DNA from: a virus
Virus record (IMG/VR): IMGVR_UViG_3300044712_001126
Coordinates: 1 to 24,869 of that record
Strand: one strand, 5' to 3'
DNA: 24,869 nt
A program made the position numbers and the translations under genes. Of the stretch, positions 3,713 to 19,288 are shown in pieces; positions within the stretch are counted from its first letter, which is position 1, and every line of letters begins with the position of its first letter. The notes below the pieces were generated by a model, which saw nothing but the letters and a program-made list of their open reading frames with translations, made no database searches and was not told the origin of the DNA.

Positions 3713-3925
3713 CTAGAGCCCCAGCTTTCCGGCGGCCCCGAGCCGCAGATCCTCATCCTTGAACACCTGAGCGGCAGGGCGATACTTCTTGCGGCTCTTG
3801 GTCAGTTCTTCGCCCGGCGTCACCGGAATAGGAGCTACCCCAGGCGTCTTGGGGGTCGGGGCCTTCTTCTTGAGGAAGCCCAGAAAGGTCGTCTTCTCCA
3901 GCAACTCCATCGGGTCCATGCCCAT
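3713..3925 (-). CDS. hypothetical protein, 70 aa, Pro/Lys-rich
   Basis: ATG at 3925 overlaps the terminase stop as TAATG and the gene ends 3 nt before the next start. After a short helix (ELLEKTTFLGFLKKK) comes a proline-rich linker (PTPKTPGVAPIPVTPG) and a basic C-terminus (SRKKYRPAAQVFKDEDLRLG). I do not recognise it. Small proteins with this layout, a helix plus Pro linker plus charged tail, are frequent between terminase and portal genes in podovirus-like phages. A structural or packaging accessory role is inference from position. An alternative upstream start at 4180 would overlap the terminase deeply and is rejected. Confidence 0.7.
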   Translation of the reverse strand: MGMDPMELLEKTTFLGFLKKKAPTPKTPGVAPIPVTPGEELTKSRKKYRPAAQVFKDEDLRLGAAGKLGL

Positions 3926-5589
3926 TATGCCCGCCCCCTGTTGAATCGCCCCCAGGTGCCGTAGGGGGAAGTATTGCCGCCCGCATAGGCTGCCGCCACA
4001 ACGCGGCTGTCGCCGATGTACTCGCCGCCGATGGTCCCAAAGCGATACTGAACTGCCAGATGTCTCAGAGCGTCCATCATATGCCGATGGGGCGTCTGGG
4101 CGGGCTGATTGTGGTAGGCGGGCTGGTCCTCGGTGCTCAATCGCTCGTTCTTCTGCTTGCCGTAGCCCTTGGCGGCCCACAGGAGCGTTCCGGCCCCCTG
4201 CTCATCGATGTCGAGCAAAGGCCAGATGAACCGCACCGCTTCAATCCCATCCTCGAAGGAGATTTTTGGTACGGCGTGGAAATTGAACCCCAGCCCCCGC
4301 AACACGTCCCGGGTGGTCTTGCCGCTGGCGGTGAAACTCTGCTTGTTGCTGCCCTCCAAATCAGGCCCGGCGTAATGGTCCTTGCCCCAGACATAGGGCA
4401 TGGCCTGCATGCTCTTGGCCAGCCCCATCGCCCCCCGGCCATCGACGGGGACCGTACCGCCCCGGCTGGCAGACTCACCGGCGTTGTCCCAGTAGTCGTT
4501 GATGATCCTGATGCGGCCCCGGATGAACTGAGCATCGAAAGCCGCTGTCCAGACATCACCCGTGTCGGCGAAGCGATAGACGGGAAAAGCCGGATCGTAG
4601 GGATAGGGGCCGATCCGCTGGGTCCTGCGGGCCGCAGCCAGCTCCCCGCCGTAGTACGTGCCCTCTTTGGTCGTGGGGAACGCCCCGCGAACGCGAATCA
4701 GCCAGCCATCGGAGCCCTTGCGATAGCGTTTGAGAATGGTCTGTTCAAAGTCTCTTCCGGCTACCCCGGGAATGACCTCGCGGCCCTCCTGATAGTTCGG
4801 GGTGTCCAGGACCGAGACGGGGACTACGTGCCAGCCCTGATCGCTCATGTAGGGCTCGGAGGACGTCTCCAGTTGGTCGAGCTTGCCGTCCAGTCGACAG
4901 GCGGCCGCAAACTCGCTCTCCGGGTCCGTGGGGTTGCCGATGGCCAGCACTTTGCACCGCTCGTTGACCACCAGACCTTCCATCACGGTGCGCCAGATCT
5001 GCGACAGGATGCCGCACGCCTCATCCAGGATCGCCAAGACCCATTCGTTGTGCCAGCCCTGCATCTTGGAGCTATGCTCGGTCGCCGAATCGGGGGAGGT
5101 CGAAAAGCCGATGGCGAAATTCAACTCCCAACACGTCCGCTCTTCGGGGGACAGACTGTCCAGAATGGCCGCATTGGGCTTGCAGTCCCAGAGGGTCTGA
5201 TTGATGGTCCCACCCAGAGGGATGCGGGAGCCCACGAACGAGGCGTGGATATGCCGCCAGAGTTGATTCTTGACTTGATTGTCCGAGGGGGCCGTGGTCA
5301 AGACGGTAGACGGCTGGAAACAGGTCTTGAACCAGGGGACGATCACCCGGCCCGCCCCGAAGGTCTTGGAGACGCTGTGGCCGGCCGGCACGGCGGTCAA
5401 CTGGTAGTCCCGCACGCTCTCAGCGACCGCCCGCATCTTGCTCCAGATGTGCTTCGGCTGGACGCCTAGGACGTTCACGGCAAAGCCCACCGGGTCTTGG
5501 CGGTAGGCAATCATCTGGGACCAGATGCCCGCCATCTCGGCCCGGTCGCTTACGGAGAGCCTGTCCAGGGCTTTAGTCGGTAGTGCCAT
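3925..5589 (-). CDS. terL: terminase large subunit
   Basis: 554 aa from ATG at 5589. It would be the DNA-packaging motor: ATPase plus headful or site-specific nuclease. An ATPase-type Walker A-like loop is seen at residues 67-76 (PAGHSVSKT; variant but usual in this terminase branch) and Walker B with the catalytic acid at 184-191 (VLAILDEA). The nuclease half has an acidic site at 340-345 (FADTGD), D410 (GPDLEGSNK) and D506 in the C-terminal HRHMMDALRH helix. Length fits the family. The start is uncertain: 5589 has only a weak GGTG, and ATG 5637 adds 16 unlikely hydrophobic residues. It overlaps the small-subunit stop by 17 nt. Confidence 0.92.
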   Translation of the reverse strand: MALPTKALDRLSVSDRAEMAGIWSQMIAYRQDPVGFAVNVLGVQPKHIWSKMRAVAESVRDYQLTAVPAGHSVSKTFGAGRVIVPWFKTCFQPSTVLTTAPSDNQVKNQLWRHIHASFVGSRIPLGGTINQTLWDCKPNAAILDSLSPEERTCWELNFAIGFSTSPDSATEHSSKMQGWHNEWVLAILDEACGILSQIWRTVMEGLVVNERCKVLAIGNPTDPESEFAAACRLDGKLDQLETSSEPYMSDQGWHVVPVSVLDTPNYQEGREVIPGVAGRDFEQTILKRYRKGSDGWLIRVRGAFPTTKEGTYYGGELAAARRTQRIGPYPYDPAFPVYRFADTGDVWTAAFDAQFIRGRIRIINDYWDNAGESASRGGTVPVDGRGAMGLAKSMQAMPYVWGKDHYAGPDLEGSNKQSFTASGKTTRDVLRGLGFNFHAVPKISFEDGIEAVRFIWPLLDIDEQGAGTLLWAAKGYGKQKNERLSTEDQPAYHNQPAQTPHRHMMDALRHLAVQYRFGTIGGEYIGDSRVVAAAYAGGNTSPYGTWGRFNRGRA

Positions 5590-6079
5590 CGCGAGCACCA
5601 CGCATAATAGCCGCAATATCTGCGAGGCTTTGCACATTCAGGTCGAGTTCCTTCTTGTCCCGCCACACTTTGGGCCGGCGGTTCTTGAGCCAGAAGATCA
5701 TCGCCGTGGGGTCCGGCGGATAATGCTTGATGATCGGCGTCAGGGTTACTGAGCCCTCGTAATTGGACACATGCACATCAGGGACGCTGTAGCCGGTGGC
5801 CCGCTCGAACAGACTCCGCTCCACTTTGTCGTCGGAAATGGCCTTGGCCTTTTTGATGGAGGCGAGAAAGTCAGGATACCGCTTGTACCAGTTCTTCACC
5901 GTCTGCTCATCCACCCCGAACATCTCTGCAACCTGTTCATCGGTGAATGGTGCGTTGATCTCGGCTTGAACCTTGACTGTTTGAGGATAGGTCTTGCGGT
6001 ACTTTGTGGGTCTGCCGCTCCGTCGCTTGGTAGTCGCGGCCTTTTTCGTTGCCCCTTTTTCTCCTGCGTCTCCAACCAT
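5573..6079 (-). CDS. terS: terminase small subunit (HTH)
   Basis: 168 aa from ATG at 6079. A basic N-terminus (KRRSGRPTKYRKTY) precedes a helix-turn-helix at about residues 45-66 (TDEQVAEMFGVDEQTVKNW), then a second helical region and the segment AMIFWLKNRRPKVWRDKKE, a hallmark of phage small terminases that recognise DNA and recruit the large subunit. It lies directly upstream of terL with a 17-nt overlap. The start is doubtful: neither ATG 6079 nor the in-frame TTG at 6115 has a good Shine-Dalgarno, and the TTG is the first base of a TTGACA that could be a -35 box. It is the first gene of the leftward head operon. Confidence 0.85.
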   Translation of the reverse strand: MVGDAGEKGATKKAATTKRRSGRPTKYRKTYPQTVKVQAEINAPFTDEQVAEMFGVDEQTVKNWYKRYPDFLASIKKAKAISDDKVERSLFERATGYSVPDVHVSNYEGSVTLTPIIKHYPPDPTAMIFWLKNRRPKVWRDKKELDLNVQSLADIAAIMRGARDGTTD

Positions 6080-7881: not shown

Positions 7882-8742
7882 GAGCATCTGCTGTTTCTTG
7901 GCTTCTTCCTGAGCCCGCTCCAAGTTTTTCAGGCAGGTGGCGTGATACTCGGGCTTGATTTCGCAGCCGTAGAACCGCCGCTCCAGTTTCACAGCCTCAT
8001 ATCCTTCCGACCCAATCCCGGCGAATGGCGAAAACACTATCTCGCCGGGATTGCTGTATAGGCGGATAAGCCGATGGATAACCCCCAACTGCAGGGGGCA
8101 GATGTGTTTCGTGTCGTCCTCGCCCCGGCCCTCGCGGACATTGAGCGTGTCCGTCTCCTTGATGTCCATCCAGCAGCATTCCGCCCAGTCGATCCACTGG
8201 TTGCGGGAGACTTCGCCCTCGGAACTGATGGGCACCTTGTTCTCCCCGGGAGCCCGGAACTTGATCAAATAGTCGGGCAGGCTCCCGCGGCTCTTGGCTC
8301 GATCGGCTTCCAAGCCGACAAATTGGAGCTCCCGGCTCTTGGTGCGGATCGCTTGAGCCTGAGGGTTCTTGCGGACGGACCAGTCATACTCATAGACCAG
8401 CCCGGCCCGCTCCCCCAGTCGAATGTTCAGGCCCCGGAAGTCAAACAGGCCCGCGCCGCCGCTGCGTTTCATCCGGGGAATCTGCATGACGTGGACCATC
8501 GCCACGCGGCCGGGCTTCAAGACATGGGCAAGCCCCCGGTAGAAAAAAGACAGGTGGAGCTTGGCTTCCCCCGCCAGATCCTCGCTGTTGCCGATGTCCT
8601 CGGGAAGACTGCTATATGCATAGAGGCTCGGGAAGGGGGGCGAGAATACCGAGAAATCCACTGACTCGGGCGGCATCACGGCCATATGGCGAATACAATC
8701 TTCCTGCACGACGCGATAGAGTTCTTCATTTTCCAATAGCAT
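7867..8742 (-). CDS. DNA methyltransferase, SPPF-type, permuted (beta class)
   Basis: 291 aa from ATG at 8742. Catalytic motif IV is SPPF at residues 34-37, the form seen in many N4-cytosine and some N6-adenine enzymes. The SAM-binding motif I (FSPFAGIGSEG, about 237-247) lies near the C-terminus, so motif order is IV then I, as in beta-class enzymes. It would transfer methyl from SAM to a base in a short DNA site. Target base and site cannot be read from sequence. The start overlaps the helicase stop by 17 nt, so both form one operon. No restriction nuclease is adjacent. Confidence 0.85.
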   Translation of the reverse strand: MLLENEELYRVVQEDCIRHMAVMPPESVDFSVFSPPFPSLYAYSSLPEDIGNSEDLAGEAKLHLSFFYRGLAHVLKPGRVAMVHVMQIPRMKRSGGAGLFDFRGLNIRLGERAGLVYEYDWSVRKNPQAQAIRTKSRELQFVGLEADRAKSRGSLPDYLIKFRAPGENKVPISSEGEVSRNQWIDWAECCWMDIKETDTLNVREGRGEDDTKHICPLQLGVIHRLIRLYSNPGEIVFSPFAGIGSEGYEAVKLERRFYGCEIKPEYHATCLKNLERAQEEAKKQQMLLFCG

Positions 8743-10213
8743 AGGTCTTGAATATCCTTTCTTGTTCTTCCGTGTCCGCCTGGACCCGCTTGGCCTTGGA
8801 AAGCACGTTTTGGACCATGGGCATTTCGGCGTCGGTCACCGGGATATGGACGTTGAGGGGCCGCGTGCTGCCGACGCGGTTCGACCGCTTGACCCCCTGA
8901 TAGTATTCCTCGTAGGAGTCCTGGAGCCCGCTCCAGACTTGCCGGGTAGCAATCTGGAGGTTCTGGCCGAACCCGAGGATTTTGGGCTTGGTGACGAGCT
9001 GACGCACGCGGCCGGCCTTGAAGTCGGCAATGATCTTCATGCGTTCCTCGTAGGGGGTGTCCCCGGTGATATTCCCTGCTTCGGGGAACGTGGCGGCCAT
9101 GGTCTCCTGTTCGGCGTTGTAGTGGCACCAGATGATGGTAGATTCGTCGGGCCAGCTATCCACCAGCCGCCGGATGAAGGCGGGCTTGTTCGTGGCGATA
9201 GACCTTCCGTTGAGCTTGCCCTTGGAGATCTGACTGAGCTTGCCCCGCGTGCCGATACCCCCGGCGTCCGTCACGAACAGGCCCCCGGTTTGGTCCTGGA
9301 CCGCTGTAGTCTGCTCGGTAGTCATGGGGACGTGGTCGATATGGACGTGGATCGGCGGGATGTCTCCACTGTGGTCTTTCCAGCCGTAGGTCGCGGGGTT
9401 CGTCAGGAAGATGCTCCAGTCGGACAAGGCCCGGTAGAACGGTCCCAGGGCGTGCGGCTTCAATTCCCAGCGGTTTTGGGTCTGACCCCGGTTGACAAAA
9501 AACCGGGCCAAAAAGGCATTGACCGTGGGGAAGGCGTCCATGAAGATCGCGTGATTGGCGTACTCAATCCGGTCGTTCGGGGCGGGCGTGCCTGTGCCGG
9601 CGAACTTCCACTGGAGCCCCTTGCCCAGCCGGAGAATCTGGTGTCCCCATGCCCCGTAGTGGCTCTTGAGCATGGAGCTTTCGTCCACAATCAGAGCCCC
9701 CAGCCGCCCCGGCTCAATCTGCTCCGTCAGGGCCTCATAGTTGGTGATGCCGTACCGTGAACCTTGAATCATCCAGGCGCGGAGATCGCGGGCATGGACC
9801 TGCTCCAGTGGGATCGAATCACCGTAGAACCGTCGGCACTCGTCCATGGTCTGCTGCACCACCATCAGGGGGCTGATAATCAGCACGGCCCTACCGGCAG
9901 GCAGGACGGATGCGACGTAGCGGGCGAACTCCAGCATAATCAGGGTCTTGCCCAAGCCACAATCCGCGAATACGGAGAACTTCCGCTTGCGGATTGCCAT
10001 GGCGGAAATAGCCTTCTGGTAGTCAAAGAGAAAGGGGCTGGGTTCATAGGGCGGAAGTGTCGAGAGGATAGCCTGCTGGCCCAGCATCGCCACGTATTCC
10101 TCGGGCACCAGTGCTGTTCGCCCGCAGAAGCGATAGCGAGGCAGGGCCTTGATTCGTAGGAACAGACCGTATCCCTCCTGGCTGTTCAGGTCGATAGGGA
10201 TTTCCTGCATCAT
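8726..10213 (-). CDS. SNF2-like superfamily 2 helicase/ATPase
   Basis: 495 aa from the first of two ATGs at 10213, with GGTGAG just upstream. Visible SF2 motifs in order: Q-like FDYQKAI (63-69), Walker A ADCGLGKT (83-90), Ia LIISPL, II VDES (176-179), III GTGTPAPN (206-213), IV IIWCHYN, V GFGQNLQ and VI QGVKRSNRVG (439-448). This is the phage group of DEAD/SNF2-like helicases whose arginine finger lies in motif VI. Likely role is ATP-driven movement on duplex DNA. Coupling to the downstream methyltransferase recalls helicase-methyltransferase pairs in phage anti-restriction and in restriction-like systems; that link is inference. Confidence 0.88.
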   Translation of the reverse strand: MMQEIPIDLNSQEGYGLFLRIKALPRYRFCGRTALVPEEYVAMLGQQAILSTLPPYEPSPFLFDYQKAISAMAIRKRKFSVFADCGLGKTLIMLEFARYVASVLPAGRAVLIISPLMVVQQTMDECRRFYGDSIPLEQVHARDLRAWMIQGSRYGITNYEALTEQIEPGRLGALIVDESSMLKSHYGAWGHQILRLGKGLQWKFAGTGTPAPNDRIEYANHAIFMDAFPTVNAFLARFFVNRGQTQNRWELKPHALGPFYRALSDWSIFLTNPATYGWKDHSGDIPPIHVHIDHVPMTTEQTTAVQDQTGGLFVTDAGGIGTRGKLSQISKGKLNGRSIATNKPAFIRRLVDSWPDESTIIWCHYNAEQETMAATFPEAGNITGDTPYEERMKIIADFKAGRVRQLVTKPKILGFGQNLQIATRQVWSGLQDSYEEYYQGVKRSNRVGSTRPLNVHIPVTDAEMPMVQNVLSKAKRVQADTEEQERIFKTYAIGK

Positions 10214-10320
10214 CTCACCAAAGAAAAACCCCCGGCCCTGCTACAGATGTGGAGTCTGCCCGCGCGTTACCGCTTTGGGGGACCGGGGATTGATGGCTTG
10301 TTTTCCACTGTTTTAGCATG
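10214..10320 (-). promoter_or_regulatory. structured leader L1 with terminator-like hairpin before the helicase
   Basis: The leader can fold into a three-way junction. The outer stem is CCCCGG (10288-10283) with CCGGGG (10235-10230), extendable by GGG/CCC around a bulge. One inner hairpin is GCG-GTAA-CGC (10273-10264), with a GNRA loop. The second is GCAGA-CTCCACA-TCTGT (10259-10243). The outer stem is followed directly by GTTTTTCTT and then the RBS and ATG at 10213. This looks like an intrinsic terminator or RBS switch placed between promoter and gene. Structure is read by eye, not computed. Confidence 0.5.
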
Positions 10321-10325
10321 ATGTC

Positions 10326-10353
10326 ACAATAGCAACTGTCACGCGATTGTCAA
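10326..10353 (-). promoter_or_regulatory. promoter of helicase-methyltransferase operon with candidate operator
   Basis: On the minus strand TTGACA (10353-10348) and TATTGT (10331-10326) are 16 nt apart. The -35 is perfect, the -10 matches 4 of 6. Between and over the boxes lies GCGTGACAGTTGCTATTGT, which resembles the palindrome at the promoter near 15880, and GTGACA occurs twice 15 nt apart. A repressor-operator arrangement is likely. Confidence 0.6.
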
Positions 10354-10580
10354 GGGGTTTTCCGCCACAAAATCAGGCCCTCGACGGCCAAACCGAGAAA
10401 AATCAAGTCCCGCAAGGCAAACGACCAGATGCCCGCCTGGACGTGAATGGCCAGAGACAACCCATTACTGACGAGCCAGAGTCCAAAGCAGATCCGCTTG
10501 CGGCGATTGTTGGCCACTACCCCCAATATGGCGATGGCGGTCGCCAGCAGTCCAACAGTCTCGATGATCCATGGGTTCAT
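10350..10580 (-). CDS. small multi-pass membrane protein, 76 aa
   Basis: ATG at 10580 follows GGGGAAAG. Three membrane segments can be seen: about residues 6-21 (TVGLLATAIAILGVV), 31-49 (CFGLWLVSNGLSLAIHVQA) and 53-71 (FALRDLIFLGLAVEGLILW). The conserved look, with NNRRKRICFGLW between segments 1 and 2 and FALRD between 2 and 3, recalls small PnuC/SemiSWEET-like membrane proteins; a three-segment holin is an alternative because two further small membrane genes follow upstream. Neither role is proved. It overlaps the helicase promoter by a few bases at its 3' end. Confidence 0.65.
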   Translation of the reverse strand: MNPWIIETVGLLATAIAILGVVANNRRKRICFGLWLVSNGLSLAIHVQAGIWSFALRDLIFLGLAVEGLILWRKTP

Positions 10581-10695
10581 CAAATCTTTCCCCCAGCCAG
10601 CCGGGTTGTCAGCCGGGGGAATCCGTCGCCAGCAACTATATGTAGTGCGTCAGCATTTCGGCCCTCCTGTGGGGCCGTCCCTGGCCGCTTGAGGG
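10581..10695 (-). other. intergenic spacer between two membrane-protein genes
   Basis: 115 bp with no convincing gene. On the minus strand an RBS-like AGGAGGG precedes a six-codon ATG frame (MLTHYI then stop, about 10650), which could be a leader peptide or chance. CCCCC/GGGGG arms at 10590-10619 could form a hairpin that covers the RBS of the 10580 gene. Confidence 0.35.
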
Positions 10696-10812
10696 TCATC
10701 CGTGAGGTTTGCCCCGGCTACGCCACACCCGCCACGCCTGGACGGGATGAAACACGCAATAGATGAGGCCCAGAGGCCACGCCAGCCATTTGGGGAGGAT
10801 GGGGCCGCTCAT
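10696..10812 (-). CDS. small membrane peptide, 38 aa
   Basis: ATG at 10812 overlaps the preceding stop as ATGA, giving a 38-residue protein ending in a TGA at 10698-10696. It has one probable membrane segment (WLAWPLGLIYCVFHPVQAW, about residues 9-27) and a basic tail (RVWRSRGKPHG), which suggests an N-out, C-in or peripheral arrangement. No family is recognised. It belongs to a run of three small membrane-protein genes that could be a lysis or superinfection-exclusion group; that is inference from layout. Confidence 0.55.
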   Translation of the reverse strand: MSGPILPKWLAWPLGLIYCVFHPVQAWRVWRSRGKPHG

Positions 10813-11087
10813 GGTACGTGAATCCCTGTCACTCCCGCCTGGGCCAACATGACCTTGTGGGCCTTGACCTCGGGACTGTCGTGGAAGTTGCACCGACCCT
10901 GAAGATAAACCGCAATGGCGTCGTCGGCCTTGGTCTGAGTCGCCTTGGCTGATTCCGCGAACTTCCACCACCGCAGCCGATCTTTCTCTCGGTCCTGTTC
11001 GCCCCGCTCCCGGGTGAAGTAGGCACACACCAGAGCCGGGGCAATGACCTTGCCGATCCGCATCAAAAGTGCCGTAAGCCAGCCCAT
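10809..11087 (-). CDS. membrane-anchored small protein, possible lysis accessory
   Basis: 92 aa from ATG at 11087, with AAAGGA upstream. One membrane segment near the N-terminus (WLTALLMRIGKVIAPALVCAYF, residues 3-24) is followed by a highly charged helix (TRERGEQDREKDRLRWWKFAESAKATQTKADDA) and a short tail. A membrane anchor plus charged helix is the layout of phage i-spanin or Rz-like proteins and of some holins, but no signature was found. A strong GC hairpin lies 22 nt before the start codon. Function remains open. Confidence 0.6.
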   Translation of the reverse strand: MGWLTALLMRIGKVIAPALVCAYFTRERGEQDREKDRLRWWKFAESAKATQTKADDAIAVYLQGRCNFHDSPEVKAHKVMLAQAGVTGIHVP

Positions 11088-11108
11088 TGCACAGTCCTTT
11101 CAAAGCAG

Positions 11109-11137
11109 GGGCAGGGCGGCATGAACACACCCTGCCC
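11109..11137 (-). promoter_or_regulatory. hairpin H1 upstream of the 11087 gene
   Basis: GGGCAGGG (11109-11116) pairs perfectly with CCCTGCCC (11130-11137) around a 13-nt loop. On the minus strand its 3' arm ends 21 nt before the ATG at 11087, just outside the RBS. There is no U-tract, so it is not a standard intrinsic terminator. Confidence 0.55.
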
Positions 11138-11159
11138 GTGTCGGAGGGGAGGGTGAGTC

Positions 11160-11660
11160 TCAGAATCGCCGCTGGAGAGTCAGAAGGAGGCGGCCTTGGT
11201 CGTCTACCGTGCCAAACTCTTTCCAGAGGTCGTCATTCAGGAGGTACTGATATTCGACGCCGATGCGGGTCTGGGTGTCGCCGAAACTCAGGCCGGTCAT
11301 CAGGGCTGCCCCGGCGTCCTCGTCGGAGTCCTCGCGATGCAGCACCCCCATTTGACCGCCGACGTAGATCGTGACGGGAACTTGGTAGGTCAGGACGGTG
11401 AATTGAGCATCCTGGACGACGTCGTAGATCGCGTAGGCCCCGCCGCCGTAGGCTTCGTCCTCGCCCTCGGCGAGACCGTCCAGCCATACGCCATAGCCGC
11501 CGACTTCCGTGCGGCCCTGCCAGGGCCTTGTACCCACCCGCAGGGAAAGCAGGTCGTCGCTGCCAACGGCAGTCACGGTCCAGCCGTCGCCTCCGTAGAC
11601 CGTACTGCACAGCGCACACAGAAACACCATCACCAAAATCGAAATTGCGAATGTCTTCAT
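11160..11660 (-). CDS. secreted outer-membrane beta-barrel-like protein
   Basis: 166 aa from ATG at 11660, with GGAGAAAAAGAG just upstream. A signal peptide spans about residues 1-23 (KTFAISILVMVFLCALC core, then STVYG/G). The mature part is Gly/Tyr-rich with alternating polar and hydrophobic residues, acidic loops, and strands such as QTRIGVEYQYLL and GRLLLTLQRRF. The C-terminal Phe and the strand before it are the recognition signal for the outer-membrane BAM machinery. About eight strands would fit. Phage-encoded porin-like proteins such as lambda Lom are known and change the host surface. It has its own promoter. Exact family not recognised. Confidence 0.7.
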   Translation of the reverse strand: MKTFAISILVMVFLCALCSTVYGGDGWTVTAVGSDDLLSLRVGTRPWQGRTEVGGYGVWLDGLAEGEDEAYGGGAYAIYDVVQDAQFTVLTYQVPVTIYVGGQMGVLHREDSDEDAGAALMTGLSFGDTQTRIGVEYQYLLNDDLWKEFGTVDDQGRLLLTLQRRF

Positions 11661-11690
11661 CTCTTTTTCTCCAAACCCTTACCCGTTGAT

Positions 11691-11707
11691 GTCCGGACGC
11701 TCCAGAC
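11691..11707 (-). promoter_or_regulatory. short hairpin at 5' end of the beta-barrel mRNA
   Basis: On the minus strand GTCTGGA-GCG-TCCGGAC forms a 7-bp hairpin (one G-T pair) immediately downstream of the -10 box. It would lie at the very 5' end of the transcript, where such hairpins often slow mRNA decay. Confidence 0.35.
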
Positions 11708-11710
11708 AGT

Positions 11711-11739
11711 ATTTTACCACTCCCCCGAAGCCCTGTCAC
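11711..11739 (-). promoter_or_regulatory. promoter for the beta-barrel gene
   Basis: GTGACA (11739-11734), 17-nt spacer, TAAAAT (11716-11711) on the minus strand; both boxes match 5 of 6. It begins directly after the stop codon of the Myb/SANT-like gene, so the beta-barrel gene can be expressed alone. Confidence 0.6.
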
Positions 11740-11952
11740 CTACTTTCCCAGGGCCTTCATGCGTTTTTTGCTCTTGCGGAGGCCCAGCCGGGAGGCCTTT
11801 TTCTTGACCGCCTGGAGGGGGCGGTGCAGCAGTTGTGCTACTTCCTCCGTGGACCGGCCCGGAAACAGCCGCTTGAGATCTCGCAGGTCGTTTTTCGTCC
11901 AAGCGCCCTTTGTCATGTTCTTGAGATACACGTTGCTCTCTGCCACTGTCAT
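11740..11952 (-). CDS. small Myb/SANT- or GcrA-like DNA-binding protein, 70 aa
   Basis: ATG at 11952, start 7 nt after the upstream stop. After a short N-terminus comes WTKNDLRDLKRLFPGRSTEEVAQLLHRP followed by QAVKKKASRLGLRKSKK: a tryptophan-initiated three-helix unit whose last helix (LQAVKKKASRLGL) is the recognition helix. This is the pattern of phage Myb/SANT-like and GcrA-like DNA-binding proteins. The C-terminal tail is strongly basic. It is a candidate regulator of the promoters that share the TGACAG motif, though nothing ties it to them directly. Shine-Dalgarno is weak (AAAGGG close to the start). Confidence 0.7.
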   Translation of the reverse strand: MTVAESNVYLKNMTKGAWTKNDLRDLKRLFPGRSTEEVAQLLHRPLQAVKKKASRLGLRKSKKRMKALGK

Positions 11953-11958
11953 TCCCTT

Positions 11959-12435
11959 TCACTTCTTGAGATACCATACATGGTCTACCAGCTTCACGAT
12001 AGCGTCAAACTTCTTCTTGGTGGTCCCTGATCGGTTCGGCCGGGGGCCTTTCCACACCAAGACCATCTTTTTGTCGGGATGCTGCTGGCAGAAGCGAATG
12101 ACGTTTGTTCCTGCCTGCTGCTCGATGCGATTGTACTTGATCTCGTACCAGACCTCGCCTTCGTCGGAATTCCAGACCACGCGGCAGTCGGGCCGGTAGG
12201 TCCGCACGCACCCGATCCCTGTCCGCTTGAAGTGAATCTCGACTTCCTTGGGCTGCCACTGCCACTCTTTGACTTGACCGCCCACAATCGCAAGCTCCAA
12301 CTCACGGAGCCATTGCCGTTCCGCCCCGGACGCCGTGTAGCACTCCCGGCCCGCTACGGTAATCCACCCCGCACTTCCGTAACTCTGTTCTGGGCGGAAT
12401 CGTTTCTCAAAGCCCATCTTTTCCGGTTCGGTCAT
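11959..12435 (-). CDS. DUF1064-like PD-(D/E)XK nuclease
   Basis: 158 aa; ATG at 12435 overlaps the exonuclease stop as ATGA. Conserved acids fit a PD-(D/E)XK active site: E39 in the SGAERQWLREL helix, PD at 82-83 (YRPDCRVVW) and EIK at 98-100 (VWYEIK). The order helix with E, then QPKEVEI strand, then R.Y.PD, then EvK is the DUF1064 (PF06356) pattern. DUF1064 proteins are phage-encoded and proposed to be Holliday-junction or branched-DNA endonucleases. Its place next to a DnaQ exonuclease and an Erf-like protein supports a recombination role. Confidence 0.75.
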   Translation of the reverse strand: MTEPEKMGFEKRFRPEQSYGSAGWITVAGRECYTASGAERQWLRELELAIVGGQVKEWQWQPKEVEIHFKRTGIGCVRTYRPDCRVVWNSDEGEVWYEIKYNRIEQQAGTNVIRFCQQHPDKKMVLVWKGPRPNRSGTTKKKFDAIVKLVDHVWYLKK

Positions 12436-13049
12436 GGCGACTGCTCCGGCCGGTTCTTGGCGTAGTGGACTTCTGGCTCCGGCACCAGACCCAGGCCCGC
12501 CAGCCGCCGCAGCAGTTCCGCCGTCACGGTGGCGTCGCCGAAAGCGGTGTGTTCTTCGGGCTGTTCGATGCCAAAGTGCTTGCAGGCTTCCCAGAGCTTG
12601 GGGAACTTGTACCCGCTGCCGGTTTTCTTGGGGATTTTACACACGCCGGTCAGAGCCCGCATGACGCAGACGTTCGGGGTGTCCTCGAACCGGTCGGGTA
12701 GCCCGGCCCGCCGCAGTTCCCCCCGCATGACCTTGGTGTCATACTGGGCATTGAAGCCCACAATCACAAACCCATCTTCGATCAGGGCCAGATACAGGGC
12801 CAGCACGTCTTTGATCGGGATGCCCTTGGTGTTGAGGATGTCATCGGTGAGCCCGTGGATCTTGATCGCATCCGGGGTCATCGACCAGCCGTCCGGTTTT
12901 ACGAAGACGTTCACGGTGGTCTCGACCTCCAGCGTTTCGTTCAGGGTGAGGACGGCCAGATTCGCCAATCGCGGCTGGCCCTCGGCGTCGGCGGGCTTGG
13001 AGAAGTCGAAGAGCCCGCTCGTTTCGGTATCGATCACTGCGTATCGCAT
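12432..13049 (-). CDS. DnaQ-like 3'-5' exonuclease (DEDDh)
   Basis: 205 aa from ATG at 13049, with AGGAGAG upstream. All three exonuclease motifs are visible: Exo I DTETSGL (D7, E9), Exo II GFNAQYDTKVM (D104) and Exo III HTAFGDATVT (H167, D172), which makes it the DEDDh type with two-metal catalysis. It would remove nucleotides from 3' ends of DNA or RNA. It lacks any polymerase or RNase-T-specific part. Coupled by ATGA to the DUF1064 nuclease; likely part of a replication and recombination set. A GC hairpin ends 18 nt before the start. Confidence 0.88.
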   Translation of the reverse strand: MRYAVIDTETSGLFDFSKPADAEGQPRLANLAVLTLNETLEVETTVNVFVKPDGWSMTPDAIKIHGLTDDILNTKGIPIKDVLALYLALIEDGFVIVGFNAQYDTKVMRGELRRAGLPDRFEDTPNVCVMRALTGVCKIPKKTGSGYKFPKLWEACKHFGIEQPEEHTAFGDATVTAELLRRLAGLGLVPEPEVHYAKNRPEQSP

Positions 13050-15338: not shown

Positions 15339-15788
15339 CTATTTCGGAGAATTTTGGGCGTGACTTGCTAACCCCTTGTCACTCCGTCGGTTATGAGCCA
15401 AGATTTTTTTCACATTTCCGCGCCAGTGCCGATTGAGGGGGTGCGATTCCACCGGAGCCCACCGCCGGGCGAATGCTTCCAGGTCGCCCGTGTACCGCTT
15501 CTGAATCGTGCCGGCGGCCCATTTCGCCTGCAATCGTAGGCTCTGAGCGTGGTTTCCATGGTATCGCCTAGCAGCGGGTTCCAGTACCCCCATCTCGCGG
15601 CCGTCTAGGAGGCCCCGGGCGCGGTCCTTCTCGTTGCCCTCGGCCAGATAGATCGCAAACAGCAGGTGTTTGGATTCGCCCTTCAGGCGGTATTCCTGGG
15701 CCACTTCTGAGAGAATCGCTCGATCGGCTTCGGGGATTCGCAGGAAGGGACTGGCCGCACACAACACCACGACGAACGACGTAATCAT
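15339..15788 (-). CDS. secreted lysozyme/transglycosylase-like protein
   Basis: 149 aa from ATG at 15788, chosen because a perfect AAGGAGGT ends five nt upstream; an ATG at 15806 adds MKKEVF, which would give the signal peptide positive charges, and is a real alternative. The hydrophobic N-terminus (FVVVLCAASPF) looks like a signal peptide or anchor. The body (LLFAIYLAEGNEKDRARG, GREMGVLEP, LQAKWAAGTIQKRY, FARRWAP, NRHWRGNVKKIL) matches a lysozyme-like helical fold seen in phage proteins, with the glutamate of YLAEGN as catalytic candidate. It may cleave peptidoglycan in the periplasm. Known endolysin families were not matched directly. Confidence 0.6.
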   Translation of the reverse strand: MITSFVVVLCAASPFLRIPEADRAILSEVAQEYRLKGESKHLLFAIYLAEGNEKDRARGLLDGREMGVLEPAARRYHGNHAQSLRLQAKWAAGTIQKRYTGDLEAFARRWAPVESHPLNRHWRGNVKKILAHNRRSDKGLASHAQNSPK

Positions 15789-15878
15789 AAAGACCTCCTT
15801 TTTCATAGTCTACCCTCTCTATCGGCCTGGGGCAAGGATGGCGTGACAATTTTTCTGTGATTCTGCGGATTTTCCCTC

Positions 15879-16336: not shown

Positions 16337-16497
16337 AGCCCACTTGTGAGCATTGCCGGTTCTGGAAAGCTCAGGTAGTCCTGGGGCATGTCGTGGTGGG
16401 CTGTGCCAATGACAAGAGCCCCAAGACGAATTTGTCCACCGGGGCCGCCGATACCTGCCCCCAGTGCAAGATGAAGGAGACACATGAATCGACGTGA
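16333..16497 (+). CDS. small Cys-rich (zinc-ribbon-like) protein, 54 aa
   Basis: ATG 16333 overlaps the previous stop and has GGGAGGGAG upstream. CEHCRFW at residues 5-11 and CPQC at 42-45, with one more Cys at 24, form a two-knuckle zinc-ribbon-like arrangement (C-x2-C ... C-x2-C). The first part, KPTCEHCRFWKA, is typical of small phage and bacterial 'C-x2-C-x-F/Y-W' proteins. Function unknown; could bind metal and nucleic acid or protein. Confidence 0.7.
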   Translation: MKPTCEHCRFWKAQVVLGHVVVGCANDKSPKTNLSTGAADTCPQCKMKETHEST

Positions 16498-16795
16498 CGC
16501 CCTCAAAGGACTCGCGGGTATGACCATCGGAACGGCATCGTGCGTGCTGCTGCCGGCGAGGGAGAGGCCCCAGAAGCCTGACAAGTTGGAGCGGGGTCAA
16601 GTCTGGCGGACTGAAGACGGCTGGACGTGCTTTGTGTCCCAAGCGGAGAAGGACGTTAGGATGGAGTGGTTCGGCCCTACCCCTGAGCATGGCTCCAGTT
16701 CTGGTTTCTACCACACAGAGAATGCCCTGATACTCAAGTGTGTGAGAGACCACTGGACCTACCTCGGCAACATCCGGGAGCTTCCGCTCGCATAG
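16484..16795 (+). CDS. Tat-signal protein, 103 aa
   Basis: ATG 16484 follows AAGGAG. The N-terminus MNRRDALKGLAGMTIG is a textbook twin-arginine motif (RRxxLKGLAG) with a hydrophobic stretch, followed by TASC, which is close to a lipobox, and then VLLPARERPQ. This suggests export by the Tat system, perhaps as a lipoprotein. The mature part (QVWRTEDGWTCFVSQAEKDVR, ending with HWTYLGNIRELPLA) has strand-like segments and no family I recognise. Tat signals on phage proteins are rare. The start overlaps the previous gene by 14 nt. Confidence 0.6.
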   Translation: MNRRDALKGLAGMTIGTASCVLLPARERPQKPDKLERGQVWRTEDGWTCFVSQAEKDVRMEWFGPTPEHGSSSGFYHTENALILKCVRDHWTYLGNIRELPLA

Positions 16796-16812: not shown

Positions 16813-17028
16813 ATGTTCATTGCCGGATTGGTTATCGGGGGTGGCTTGGGCCTGTTGCTCTCCGTCTACGTTTCGGAGCAACTCTACGGGGGTATCCAAC
16901 GGGACATCAAGGAACTGGAGCGGGAGATTGCCGCCGACAACCTCGAATGTGCCCGGGAAGAACGCCGAGCTGCGGCTTTGAGATTGATCCTCCAGAACGA
17001 ACAGCAGGCCCGGGAGAATGAGAGATGA
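16813..17028 (+). CDS. membrane protein with coiled-coil tail, 71 aa
   Basis: ATG 16813 is favoured over ATG 16807 because AAAGGAGG then lies 7 nt upstream instead of 1. Residues 2-19 (FIAGLVIGGGLGLLLSVY) form a membrane segment; the rest (QRDIKELEREIAADNLECAREERRAAALRLILQNEQQARE) is one long charged coiled coil. N-terminal anchor plus coiled coil fits a small membrane-tethered protein, perhaps a lysis or exclusion factor. No family recognised. Stop overlaps the next start (ATGA). Confidence 0.65.
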   Translation: MFIAGLVIGGGLGLLLSVYVSEQLYGGIQRDIKELEREIAADNLECAREERRAAALRLILQNEQQARENER

Positions 17029-17177
17029 GACGCATCTTTCCGTGGGTACTATTGGCGGTGGTGCTGACGGCGATACCGATTGCCTCTACCCCCGCCACGA
17101 AGGAGACGGTATGTGCTGCCGTCATCCTGATCTGCATTTGTCGCATCGTGGAAATCTGTCTGGAGGAAATCAAATGA
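17025..17177 (+). CDS. two-segment small membrane protein, 50 aa
   Basis: ATG 17025 overlaps the previous stop. Residues 5-20 (FPWVLLAVVLTAIPIA) and 29-45 (VCAAVILICICRIVEIC) are membrane segments with a short polar turn (STPATKET) between them, giving a hairpin topology. The N-terminus is basic (MRR), so both ends probably face the cytoplasm. Small hairpin proteins of this type include holins and toxins; no specific match. Stop overlaps the next start. Confidence 0.6.
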   Translation: MRRIFPWVLLAVVLTAIPIASTPATKETVCAAVILICICRIVEICLEEIK

Positions 17178-17581
17178 CACAGGAGACCAATATGGGATTT
17201 GATCTGGTGAAGTACATCGCCGACCAAAAGGAATGGTCTGAGCGAGTGTTCGGGCCGGGCAAGAGAACCGGCGGGCTGATAAAGCACATCCAGAGCGAAT
17301 TGAAGGAGATCGCGGATGCTCCGACAGATTTGATCGAGTGGGTGGACGTGATGATTCTGGCCTTTGACGGCGCGTGGCGGGCTGGCCACGCCCCGGAACA
17401 GATCATCGAAGGTCTCTTGAAGAAGCAGATCAAGAACTTCGCCCGCAAGTGGCCGAAGCCGGGGCCGCAGGATGAGGCGAACTTTCACATCAAGGCGTCT
17501 CCCGCCGAGAGGCCCTCTATCCGTGGCGGGGAATACCTCGGCAACGTCCTGACCAAGCTCGTCCCGGAGGCCAAAGTATGA
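17174..17581 (+). CDS. MazG-like dATP/dGTP pyrophosphohydrolase (DUF550)
   Basis: 135 aa; ATG 17174 has GGAGG 7 nt upstream, and ATG 17192 with AGGAG upstream is an alternative. The metal-binding EXXE-x9-EXXD set of all-alpha NTP pyrophosphatases is visible at E42/E45 (SELKE) and E55/D58 (DLIEWVD), within KRTGGLIKHIQSELKE and LIEWVDVMILAFDGAWRAGH. This matches PF04447 (DUF550). The reaction would be dNTP to dNMP plus PPi, shaping the nucleotide pool for phage DNA synthesis; MazZ of Z-genome phages belongs nearby, but no purZ-like gene is in the window. Confidence 0.8.
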   Translation: MTQETNMGFDLVKYIADQKEWSERVFGPGKRTGGLIKHIQSELKEIADAPTDLIEWVDVMILAFDGAWRAGHAPEQIIEGLLKKQIKNFARKWPKPGPQDEANFHIKASPAERPSIRGGEYLGNVLTKLVPEAKV

Positions 17582-18220: not shown

Positions 18221-18504
18221 TGAACAAACTGAACCGTCTGAGACTGCGGTTGGGGTTGTTCCGGTGGAAGAACTACGCGAGCATTGAGCCGGTCTACCCC
18301 AATGCCACGTCTGTTGTAGCATCTGCTCCTAATGGAGATGTGTACGACATCGTTGCATTAACCGCTGCCTTTTGGGTGCTGTATTGGGTGGTCTATTGGC
18401 CCCATCCTCGGGCACTGAGCGATTACCCCGATGGTAAATTTCCATCCCACCGAGACGCTATCCGCTACGTCCGCCGCTGCATCAGAAGAGGAGAAAGACC
18501 ATGA
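18217..18504 (+). CDS. membrane protein, 95 aa
   Basis: ATG 18217 (two ATGs in a row) overlaps the previous stop. A basic N-terminus (KLNRLRLRLGLFRWK) precedes a linker and one membrane segment at about residues 46-62 (IVALTAAFWVLYWVVYW), then a basic C-terminus (HRDAIRYVRRCIRRGERP). The basic flanks on both sides make topology unclear. No family recognised. Stop overlaps the 16-codon frame that follows. Confidence 0.6.
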   Translation: MMNKLNRLRLRLGLFRWKNYASIEPVYPNATSVVASAPNGDVYDIVALTAAFWVLYWVVYWPHPRALSDYPDGKFPSHRDAIRYVRRCIRRGERP

Positions 18505-18551
18505 CCCCCAAGACCTACCTCGCTCCCACCGACACCGAGGCTGCCGTATGA
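18501..18551 (+). pseudogene. 16-codon frame resembling the start of the 19291 gene
   Basis: ATG 18501 has GAGGAGAAAGA upstream. It encodes MTPKTYLAPTDTEAAV and stops in an ATGA overlap with the reductase gene. The peptide aligns with the N-terminus of the 19291 product (MKTFVAPTDEIAAAL): K-T-[YF]-[LV]-A-P-T-D, then E or D, then A-A. It may be the remnant of a gene that was interrupted when the reductase gene arrived, or a translated leader peptide for coupling. Confidence 0.45.
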
Positions 18552-19288
18552 ACACGCTCTGCGGGAAGACACTGGCCGAGATTGCTATCGAGCGACTCAA
18601 GGAGTTTGAGCCCGCCGACGGCTACTACGTGGCCTACAGCGGTGGCAAGGATAGCGATGTCATTCTTGATCTGGTGCGCCGGTCTGGGGTGAAGTACGAC
18701 GCTCACCACAATCTGACGACCTGTGACCCGCCCGAAGTAGTGCGGCACGTCAAGGAACAGGGGGACGTGGTGATTCATCGGCCCCCCGTGACCATGTGGC
18801 AACTGATCCGGCAAAAGAAGAAGCCGCCCAGGATTTGCAGTCGATATTGCTGTGAAGTGCTCAAGGAGTCGTATGGACCGGGCAGGGTTATCGTGCTGGG
18901 TGTGCGATGGGGAGAATCACAGAAGCGGTCAAGGCGGAAGATGGTGGAGCAATGCTATCGCGACCCAACCAAGCGATACGTGAACCCTATCATTGATTGG
19001 TCTACTGCCGATGTCTGGACTTATATCCATGCCCGCAACATCTCGTATTGCACCCTCTACGACGAAGGCTTTGAGCGGATTGGCTGTGTGCTGTGCCCCG
19101 AGAGTAGGAATGTAGAGCGAGAGATGGCCCGATGGCCGCAGATTGCGCGGGCGTGGGAACGGGCGATCAAGGCTACGTTTGTTGCGGGCAAAGGGCCGTT
19201 TCTGACGGCAGAGGAATACTGGCACTGGTGGCTCAATCGTGACGCCCCGACGCCTGATAATGAGATGCCGTTGTTTTTCAGGGATTGA
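18548..19288 (+). CDS. PAPS-reductase-like enzyme (CysH/DndC-type)
   Basis: 246 aa; ATG 18548 overlaps the previous stop. The PP-loop SGGKDS is at residues 31-36 (YSGGKDSDVI), the nucleotide-binding signature of PAPS/APS reductases and related N-type ATP pyrophosphatases. Cysteines at 97, 101 and 102 (ICSRYCCEVLK) and C180, C183 (IGCVLCP) make a CC...CxxC set that in this family holds an Fe-S cluster. Phages often carry such genes; suggested roles are sulfur assimilation during infection or DNA/RNA thio-modification. No dnd partner genes are seen here. Substrate is not determined by the sequence. Confidence 0.85.
   Translation: MNTLCGKTLAEIAIERLKEFEPADGYYVAYSGGKDSDVILDLVRRSGVKYDAHHNLTTCDPPEVVRHVKEQGDVVIHRPPVTMWQLIRQKKKPPRICSRYCCEVLKESYGPGRVIVLGVRWGESQKRSRRKMVEQCYRDPTKRYVNPIIDWSTADVWTYIHARNISYCTLYDEGFERIGCVLCPESRNVEREMARWPQIARAWERAIKATFVAGKGPFLTAEEYWHWWLNRDAPTPDNEMPLFFRD

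Follow-up and report, generated by a model that had tools for sequence, protein, structure and literature searches.

A candidate phage moron encoding an exported protein, probably an outer-membrane beta-barrel, in a viral genome fragment

The gene and its neighbourhood

We analysed the virus record IMGVR_UViG_3300044712_001126, a stretch of 24,869 bases that is referred to here as the window. The open reading frame (ORF) that an earlier note had placed at 11160-11660, without naming a strand, was recovered exactly on the minus strand and lies within a run of minus-strand genes. The encoded protein, which we call P0001, and the other features of the locus are as follows:

11160..11660, minus: CDS of P0001, 166 aa, a predicted exported barrel-like protein (ORF listing, codon-position GC, homolog at L012:6438-6935)
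11592..11660, minus: predicted signal peptide, residues 1-23 (sequence, heuristic; AlphaFold2 helix at residues 3-20)
11163..11195, minus: C-terminal strand-like segment GRLLLTLQRRF with a Phe end (sequence, homolog end)
11669..11672, minus: ribosome-binding site GGAG, 8 nt before the ATG (sequence)
11711..11739, minus: promoter-like site GTGACA-17-TAAAAT, second hexamer preceded by TG (consensus match, gap shuffle test)
11109..11137, minus: hairpin 3′ of the P0001 gene (folding z −2.8; equally stable in 4/200 shuffles)
11740..11952, minus: 70-aa HTH-type protein, phrog_323-like, upstream neighbour (PHROGs)
10809..11087, minus: 92-aa protein with an N-terminal hydrophobic stretch, downstream neighbour (ORF listing)
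10350..10583, minus: PnuC-like membrane protein, 77 aa (Pfam, PHROGs)
8726..10213, minus: helicase, synteny anchor, 77% identity with the phage of the homolog (PHROGs, contig comparison)
7867..8742, minus: DNA methyltransferase, second synteny anchor, 81% identity with the phage of the homolog (contig comparison)

The P0001 ORF is a real gene. Its codon-position GC (0.66/0.43/0.77) matches the minus frame and the neighbouring genes, and the antisense ORF at 11196-11807 fits this pattern less well. That the frame is not a gene, or is one that has drifted out of use, is hardly credible: the collections searched yielded a single relative, but this has the same architecture and none of 1000 shuffles aligned as well, and the Shine-Dalgarno (SD) sequence, the codon-position GC and the open frame also argue against this explanation. 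An Rfam search of window positions 10000-13000 gave no match.

The promoter-like site is a consensus match only and lies in the 79-nt gap between the HTH-type gene and the P0001 gene; such a site appeared in 67 of 5000 shuffles of this gap. The hairpin behind the gene is without a clear T run, and a terminator scan reported no terminator-like site 3′ of the gene. The homolog described below is also followed by a hairpin (15 bp and UUUAU, z −3.7, as stable in 1 of 200 shuffles), but the consensus scan around it reported neither a promoter-like nor a terminator-like site. The earlier proposal that the gene has its own promoter and is expressed separately therefore stands in part, on the promoter-like site and the two hairpins, and lacks a reported terminator and a counterpart promoter at the homolog.

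The P0001 gene is set among replication-type genes, away from the tail module. Its 92-aa neighbour had no family match in Pfam, PHROGs or NCBIfam, and a TnsA-like neighbour used as a query found no relatives. In IMGVR_UViG_3300017987_000024 (G003), a phage with a ~60% identical portal and an integrase, homologs of the 70-aa and 92-aa neighbours adjoin without a P0001 gene, although their order is swapped and one of the two similarities is weak. The 92-aa protein and the PnuC-like 77-aa protein are possibly lysis genes, which would suit a part for P0001 in lysis, in which it would help to disrupt the envelope from the outer membrane or the periplasm. We consider this improbable, because P0001 has no standard lipobox by eye, unlike o-spanins, because neither it nor the 92-aa or 77-aa protein matched an endolysin, holin or spanin family, and because the homolog has other direct neighbours.

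Elsewhere in the window, a PAPS-reductase-like gene lies at 18431-19288 (plus strand) and a dATP/dGTP pyrophosphohydrolase-like gene at 17018-17581 (plus strand). A 155-aa protein at 15339-15806 (minus strand) has a signal-peptide-like start, and searches found neither a family for it nor a convincing structural counterpart. Small ORFs at window 16484-16795 (plus strand) and at L007:8554-8985 have twin-arginine-type starts (NRRDALKG, LRRTFIKSA), which we take to be Tat motifs.

A distant homolog with conserved synteny

A scan with the helicase of the window found a 41-kb phage contig, IMGVR_UViG_3300013829_000003 (locus L012), with a tape-measure match and an integrase. At L012:6438-6935 this contig encodes a homolog of P0001 of 165 aa and 28-30% identity, which has a signal peptide and an Arg-Arg-Phe end. 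The match had an E-value of 1.5e-6 in a tblastn search of the fetched loci and of 4e-8 in pairwise comparison, and the mature parts aligned with a score of 88 compared to 33.9 ± 6.4 for the 1000 shuffles. The homolog lies ~3 kb upstream of the same helicase and methyltransferase pair as in the window. Before it, at L012:6289-6412, we noted by eye a CACAGAG-type inverted repeat, and translations give a hint of further stretches of this kind on that contig.

In the collections searched, these two proteins are the only known members of the family. P0001 had no match in Pfam, PHROGs or NCBIfam, no match in the phages collection and none in PDB, and it had no relatives among 5 pattern matches in viral_contigs or 83 in genome_contigs. 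The alignment made for the homolog search (A1) gave no relatives among 63 matches in viral_contigs, only the known homolog in 20 related records (1/20), none in 12 further records (0/12) and three weak matches in PDB, the best of which (E 0.014) was a fimbrial subunit, so that no structural match was convincing. A match to A1 in 1 of 397 Phycisphaerae genomes (E 0.007) contained an internal stop and was taken as chance. With the homolog as the query, viral_contigs gave nothing beyond the homolog itself, and phages gave one match with an E-value of 2.

Features of the P0001 protein

The N-terminus of P0001 consists of a Lys and a hydrophobic core followed by V-Y-G|G-D. Cleavage after VYG is preferred by eye, and the first site acceptable to our heuristic is after residue 18. 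P0001 is one of four window ORFs listed by this heuristic among 102 SD-preceded starts, in a scan that used a core hydropathy threshold of 1.7 and did not list ORFs with a later hydrophobic segment. The signal peptide postulated earlier is thus upheld by rule, as a Sec-type signal, and judged from its sequence P0001 is very probably exported.

The earlier description of the protein as rich in Gly and Tyr was confirmed, since the mature part of 143 residues contains 15.4% Gly and 5.6% Tyr, compared to 13.0% and 5.4% in lambda Lom, together with 16.1% acidic residues, one Lys and no Cys. A strand-like segment in line with the suggested C-terminal Phe strand was likewise found, with P0001 ending in RLLLTLQRRF and the homolog in LVAGLRRRF and with hydrophobic residues at positions 1, 5, 7 and 9 from the end of P0001, but the third residue from the end is Arg and not aromatic. 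Arg at this position is atypical for an outer-membrane beta-barrel protein. The proposed alternating strands are a borderline case: the mean alternation of P0001 had a P of 0.04, but the count of alternating segments (P 0.35) was no better than in shuffles. The corresponding values for the homolog were 0.17 and 0.07. AlphaFold2 predicted no barrel and was uninformative, with a pLDDT of 36 when the sequence was modelled singly and of 29 when two rows were supplied.

Lambda Lom is described as a barrel with a signal peptide that is expressed in lysogeny (PMC12309495). Like P0001, it is phage-encoded, with a signal peptide, similar Gly and Tyr contents, an aromatic C-terminal residue and the same P of 0.04 for mean alternation. 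Lom differs in its length (206 aa), in being less acidic, in having nine Lys instead of one and in adjoining the tail gene J, whereas the P0001 gene lies among replication-type genes. Membership of P0001 in the Lom/Ail family was rejected (BLASTP E 0.58; 159 of 1000 shuffles scored as high; no Pfam family match), and the homolog had no detectable similarity to Lom (809 of 1000). A role like that of Lom is plausible for P0001. G003 encodes two exported, aromatic-ended proteins other than P0001, one of which, of 212 aa, matches PF13505 (OMP_b-brl) with 29.2 bits, and 28.8 bits in a second run, compared to a cut-off of 28.7. This protein is exported and barrel-like as P0001 would be, but P0001 itself has no PF13505 match, and homology to the two G003 proteins was rejected because 169 and, for the 212-aa protein, 250 of 1000 shuffles were as good.

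The earlier assignment of P0001 to the outer membrane accordingly receives mixed evidence: the signal peptide, the Phe end and the Lom-like composition and mean alternation point to it, but the AlphaFold2 models contain no barrel, no family matched and the segment count is at shuffle level. On balance, we consider an outer-membrane barrel likely.

The earlier note had also held that the gene would reveal a diderm host. A diderm host is consistent with the gene but not proven by it. Our portal alignment matched 1 of 392 Planctomycetota genomes, a relative on a contig of one Phycisphaerae MAG, and this is a weak hint at Phycisphaerae as the host; the binning of the MAG may be wrong. Planctomycetota have two membranes, which would fit our reading of P0001. 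For lysogeny, no integrase was matched among the 23 ORFs given to Pfam or PHROGs from the window, which is a fragment; integrases are present in two related phages that carry OMP-like genes. An integrase gene on the minus strand at L025:13116-14783 adjoins genes for tRNA-Cys and tRNA-Met, which may mark an attachment region.

Predicted export signals of tail-type proteins and the possible role of P0001

Because contig L002 overlaps the left end of the window with 99.87% identity over 3770 bases, it continues the same virus beyond that end. After the capsid gene, L002:5535-11710 holds a run of tail-type genes in which five ORFs have classical Sec signal peptide starts, and nozzle proteins of related contigs carry a similar addition:

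L002:5535-7637: signal-peptide ORF, by rule
L002:9002-10177: signal-peptide ORF, by rule
L002:10168-10974: signal-peptide ORF, by rule
L002:8595-8993: signal-peptide ORF, read by eye
L002:10976 to contig end: signal-peptide ORF, read by eye
L028:16033-18450: tail nozzle (phrog_376) with a signal peptide before the conserved start
L050:8973-11588: tail nozzle (phrog_376) with a signal peptide before the conserved start
G770:C1:21039-23624: tail nozzle (phrog_376) with a signal peptide before the conserved start

In the same run, the start of L002:7711-8172 is hydrophobic and contains no charged residue; L002:8201-8593 has no such start. When four of the L002 ORFs were searched against PHROGs, those beginning at 8595 and 9002 and, weakly, 10168 matched tail or virion families, and L002:5535-7637 had no match. 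Across the signal-peptide-bearing proteins, 9/19 matched tail or virion PHROGs; for the remaining 10/19 the tail role therefore rests on position only.

In two nozzles of related contigs, the match to the phrog_376 profile does not begin before residue 22 in one and residue 33 in the other (E 4.5e-164 and 1.8e-204), and the stretch before the profile start is signal-peptide-like in both. Three of four lineage nozzles have the added signal peptide (G003, G774 and G770; no SD was recognised for that of G770), and the nozzle of G777 is without the stretch. It was absent from all eight cultured nozzle homologs, which begin directly with the conserved part, and this, together with the late profile starts, argues against a mere product of the heuristic. 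Nozzle matches were found in 11 of 392 Planctomycetota MAGs (16 matches), and none of the 10 with a readable start had the added stretch, for which reason we rejected a general trait of Planctomycetota phages.

We also counted ORFs that passed the rule across contigs. With a minimum of 250 aa and no later transmembrane segment, 25/113 passed in 12 lineage contigs, compared to 0/84 in 8 cultured phages and 4/67 in 6 MAG contigs, three of which were taken in part; Fisher P-values were 3e-7 and 0.006 for the lineage against cultured phages and MAG contigs, respectively, with ORFs that are not independent. Among the 25 are at least four terminases, and one ORF in G774 and another in G777 look false. 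With a minimum of 150 aa, 30/234 passed in 22 lineage contigs, compared to 5/164 in cultured phages and 4/122 in nine other environmental contigs, where one of the four is the P0001 homolog itself. The set of 12 consists of the members of the 22 that exceed 10 kb, and the lineage material includes both the window and L002, with their overlap of 3770 bases. Both counts used a core hydropathy threshold of 1.9 and an overlap filter that discards genuine genes covered by a longer antisense ORF, of which L002:5535-7637 is an example. An SD was required in the window scan and the ≥150-aa count and not in the ≥250-aa count, which did not score an ORF as positive if a hydrophobic segment followed further on.

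The large terminase of the window (3925-5637, minus strand) and those of L003, L007, L040 and L041 have a signal-peptide-like N-terminus. A hydrophobic start was seen in terminases of 4/15 loci, plus L007, and the true start may instead be at an in-frame ATG that lies in or behind the hydrophobic stretch.

As far as sequences can tell, tail-type proteins in this phage lineage often carry signal peptides. In the textbook view of tailed phages, the tail is assembled in the cytoplasm. Our literature searches gave no title or abstract that describes signal peptides on tailed-phage tail proteins, which does not imply their absence from print. Since signal peptides also occur on tail-type proteins, such a peptide says less than usual about a host-surface role in this phage, and because it alone marks no host-surface protein here, the explanation of P0001 as an exported, beta-rich protein other than a barrel keeps real weight, although we rate it as unlikely. 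P0001 would then reside in the periplasm, be secreted or form part of the virion, with export as for the tail-type proteins. The five signal-peptide starts in the neighbouring tail-type genes of the same virus, the resemblance of LCALCSTVYG in P0001 to LCPTTVYA of L002:9002-10177 and the AlphaFold2 models without a barrel fit this explanation, but the composition, length and Phe end of P0001 suit small barrels and it matched no virion PHROG. The replication-type position and the gene's own signals still favour a moron.

Our preferred explanation is a stand-alone moron whose product is exported and is probably an outer-membrane beta-barrel; we assign it a probability of about 0.58. The moron would consist of this one gene, which has a promoter-like site of its own and is followed by a hairpin. 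P0001 would be exported by Sec, with its signal peptide probably cut after VYG, and the mature protein of ~143 residues would probably fold as a small outer-membrane beta-barrel of about 8 strands with acidic loops. Its most likely job would be to alter the surface of the infected cell, for example by masking or spoiling a receptor and thereby keeping other phages out, and we propose such a surface or exclusion role tentatively. It is doubtful that, instead, the lineage sends nozzle, spike and fibre proteins over the inner membrane by Sec and completes virion assembly outside the cytoplasm, with P0001 as the outer-membrane piece of that programme and not a Lom-type coat change. If the tail signal peptides work, a lineage that exports parts of its tail would need another way of assembling it, and this would matter more than P0001.

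The known phage outer-membrane proteins, Lom first, come mostly from enterobacterial prophages. A fast-diverging family in uncultured phages would widen this kind of phage-encoded protein. It may also offer a way to study phage-phage exclusion in hosts beyond the reach of cultivation.
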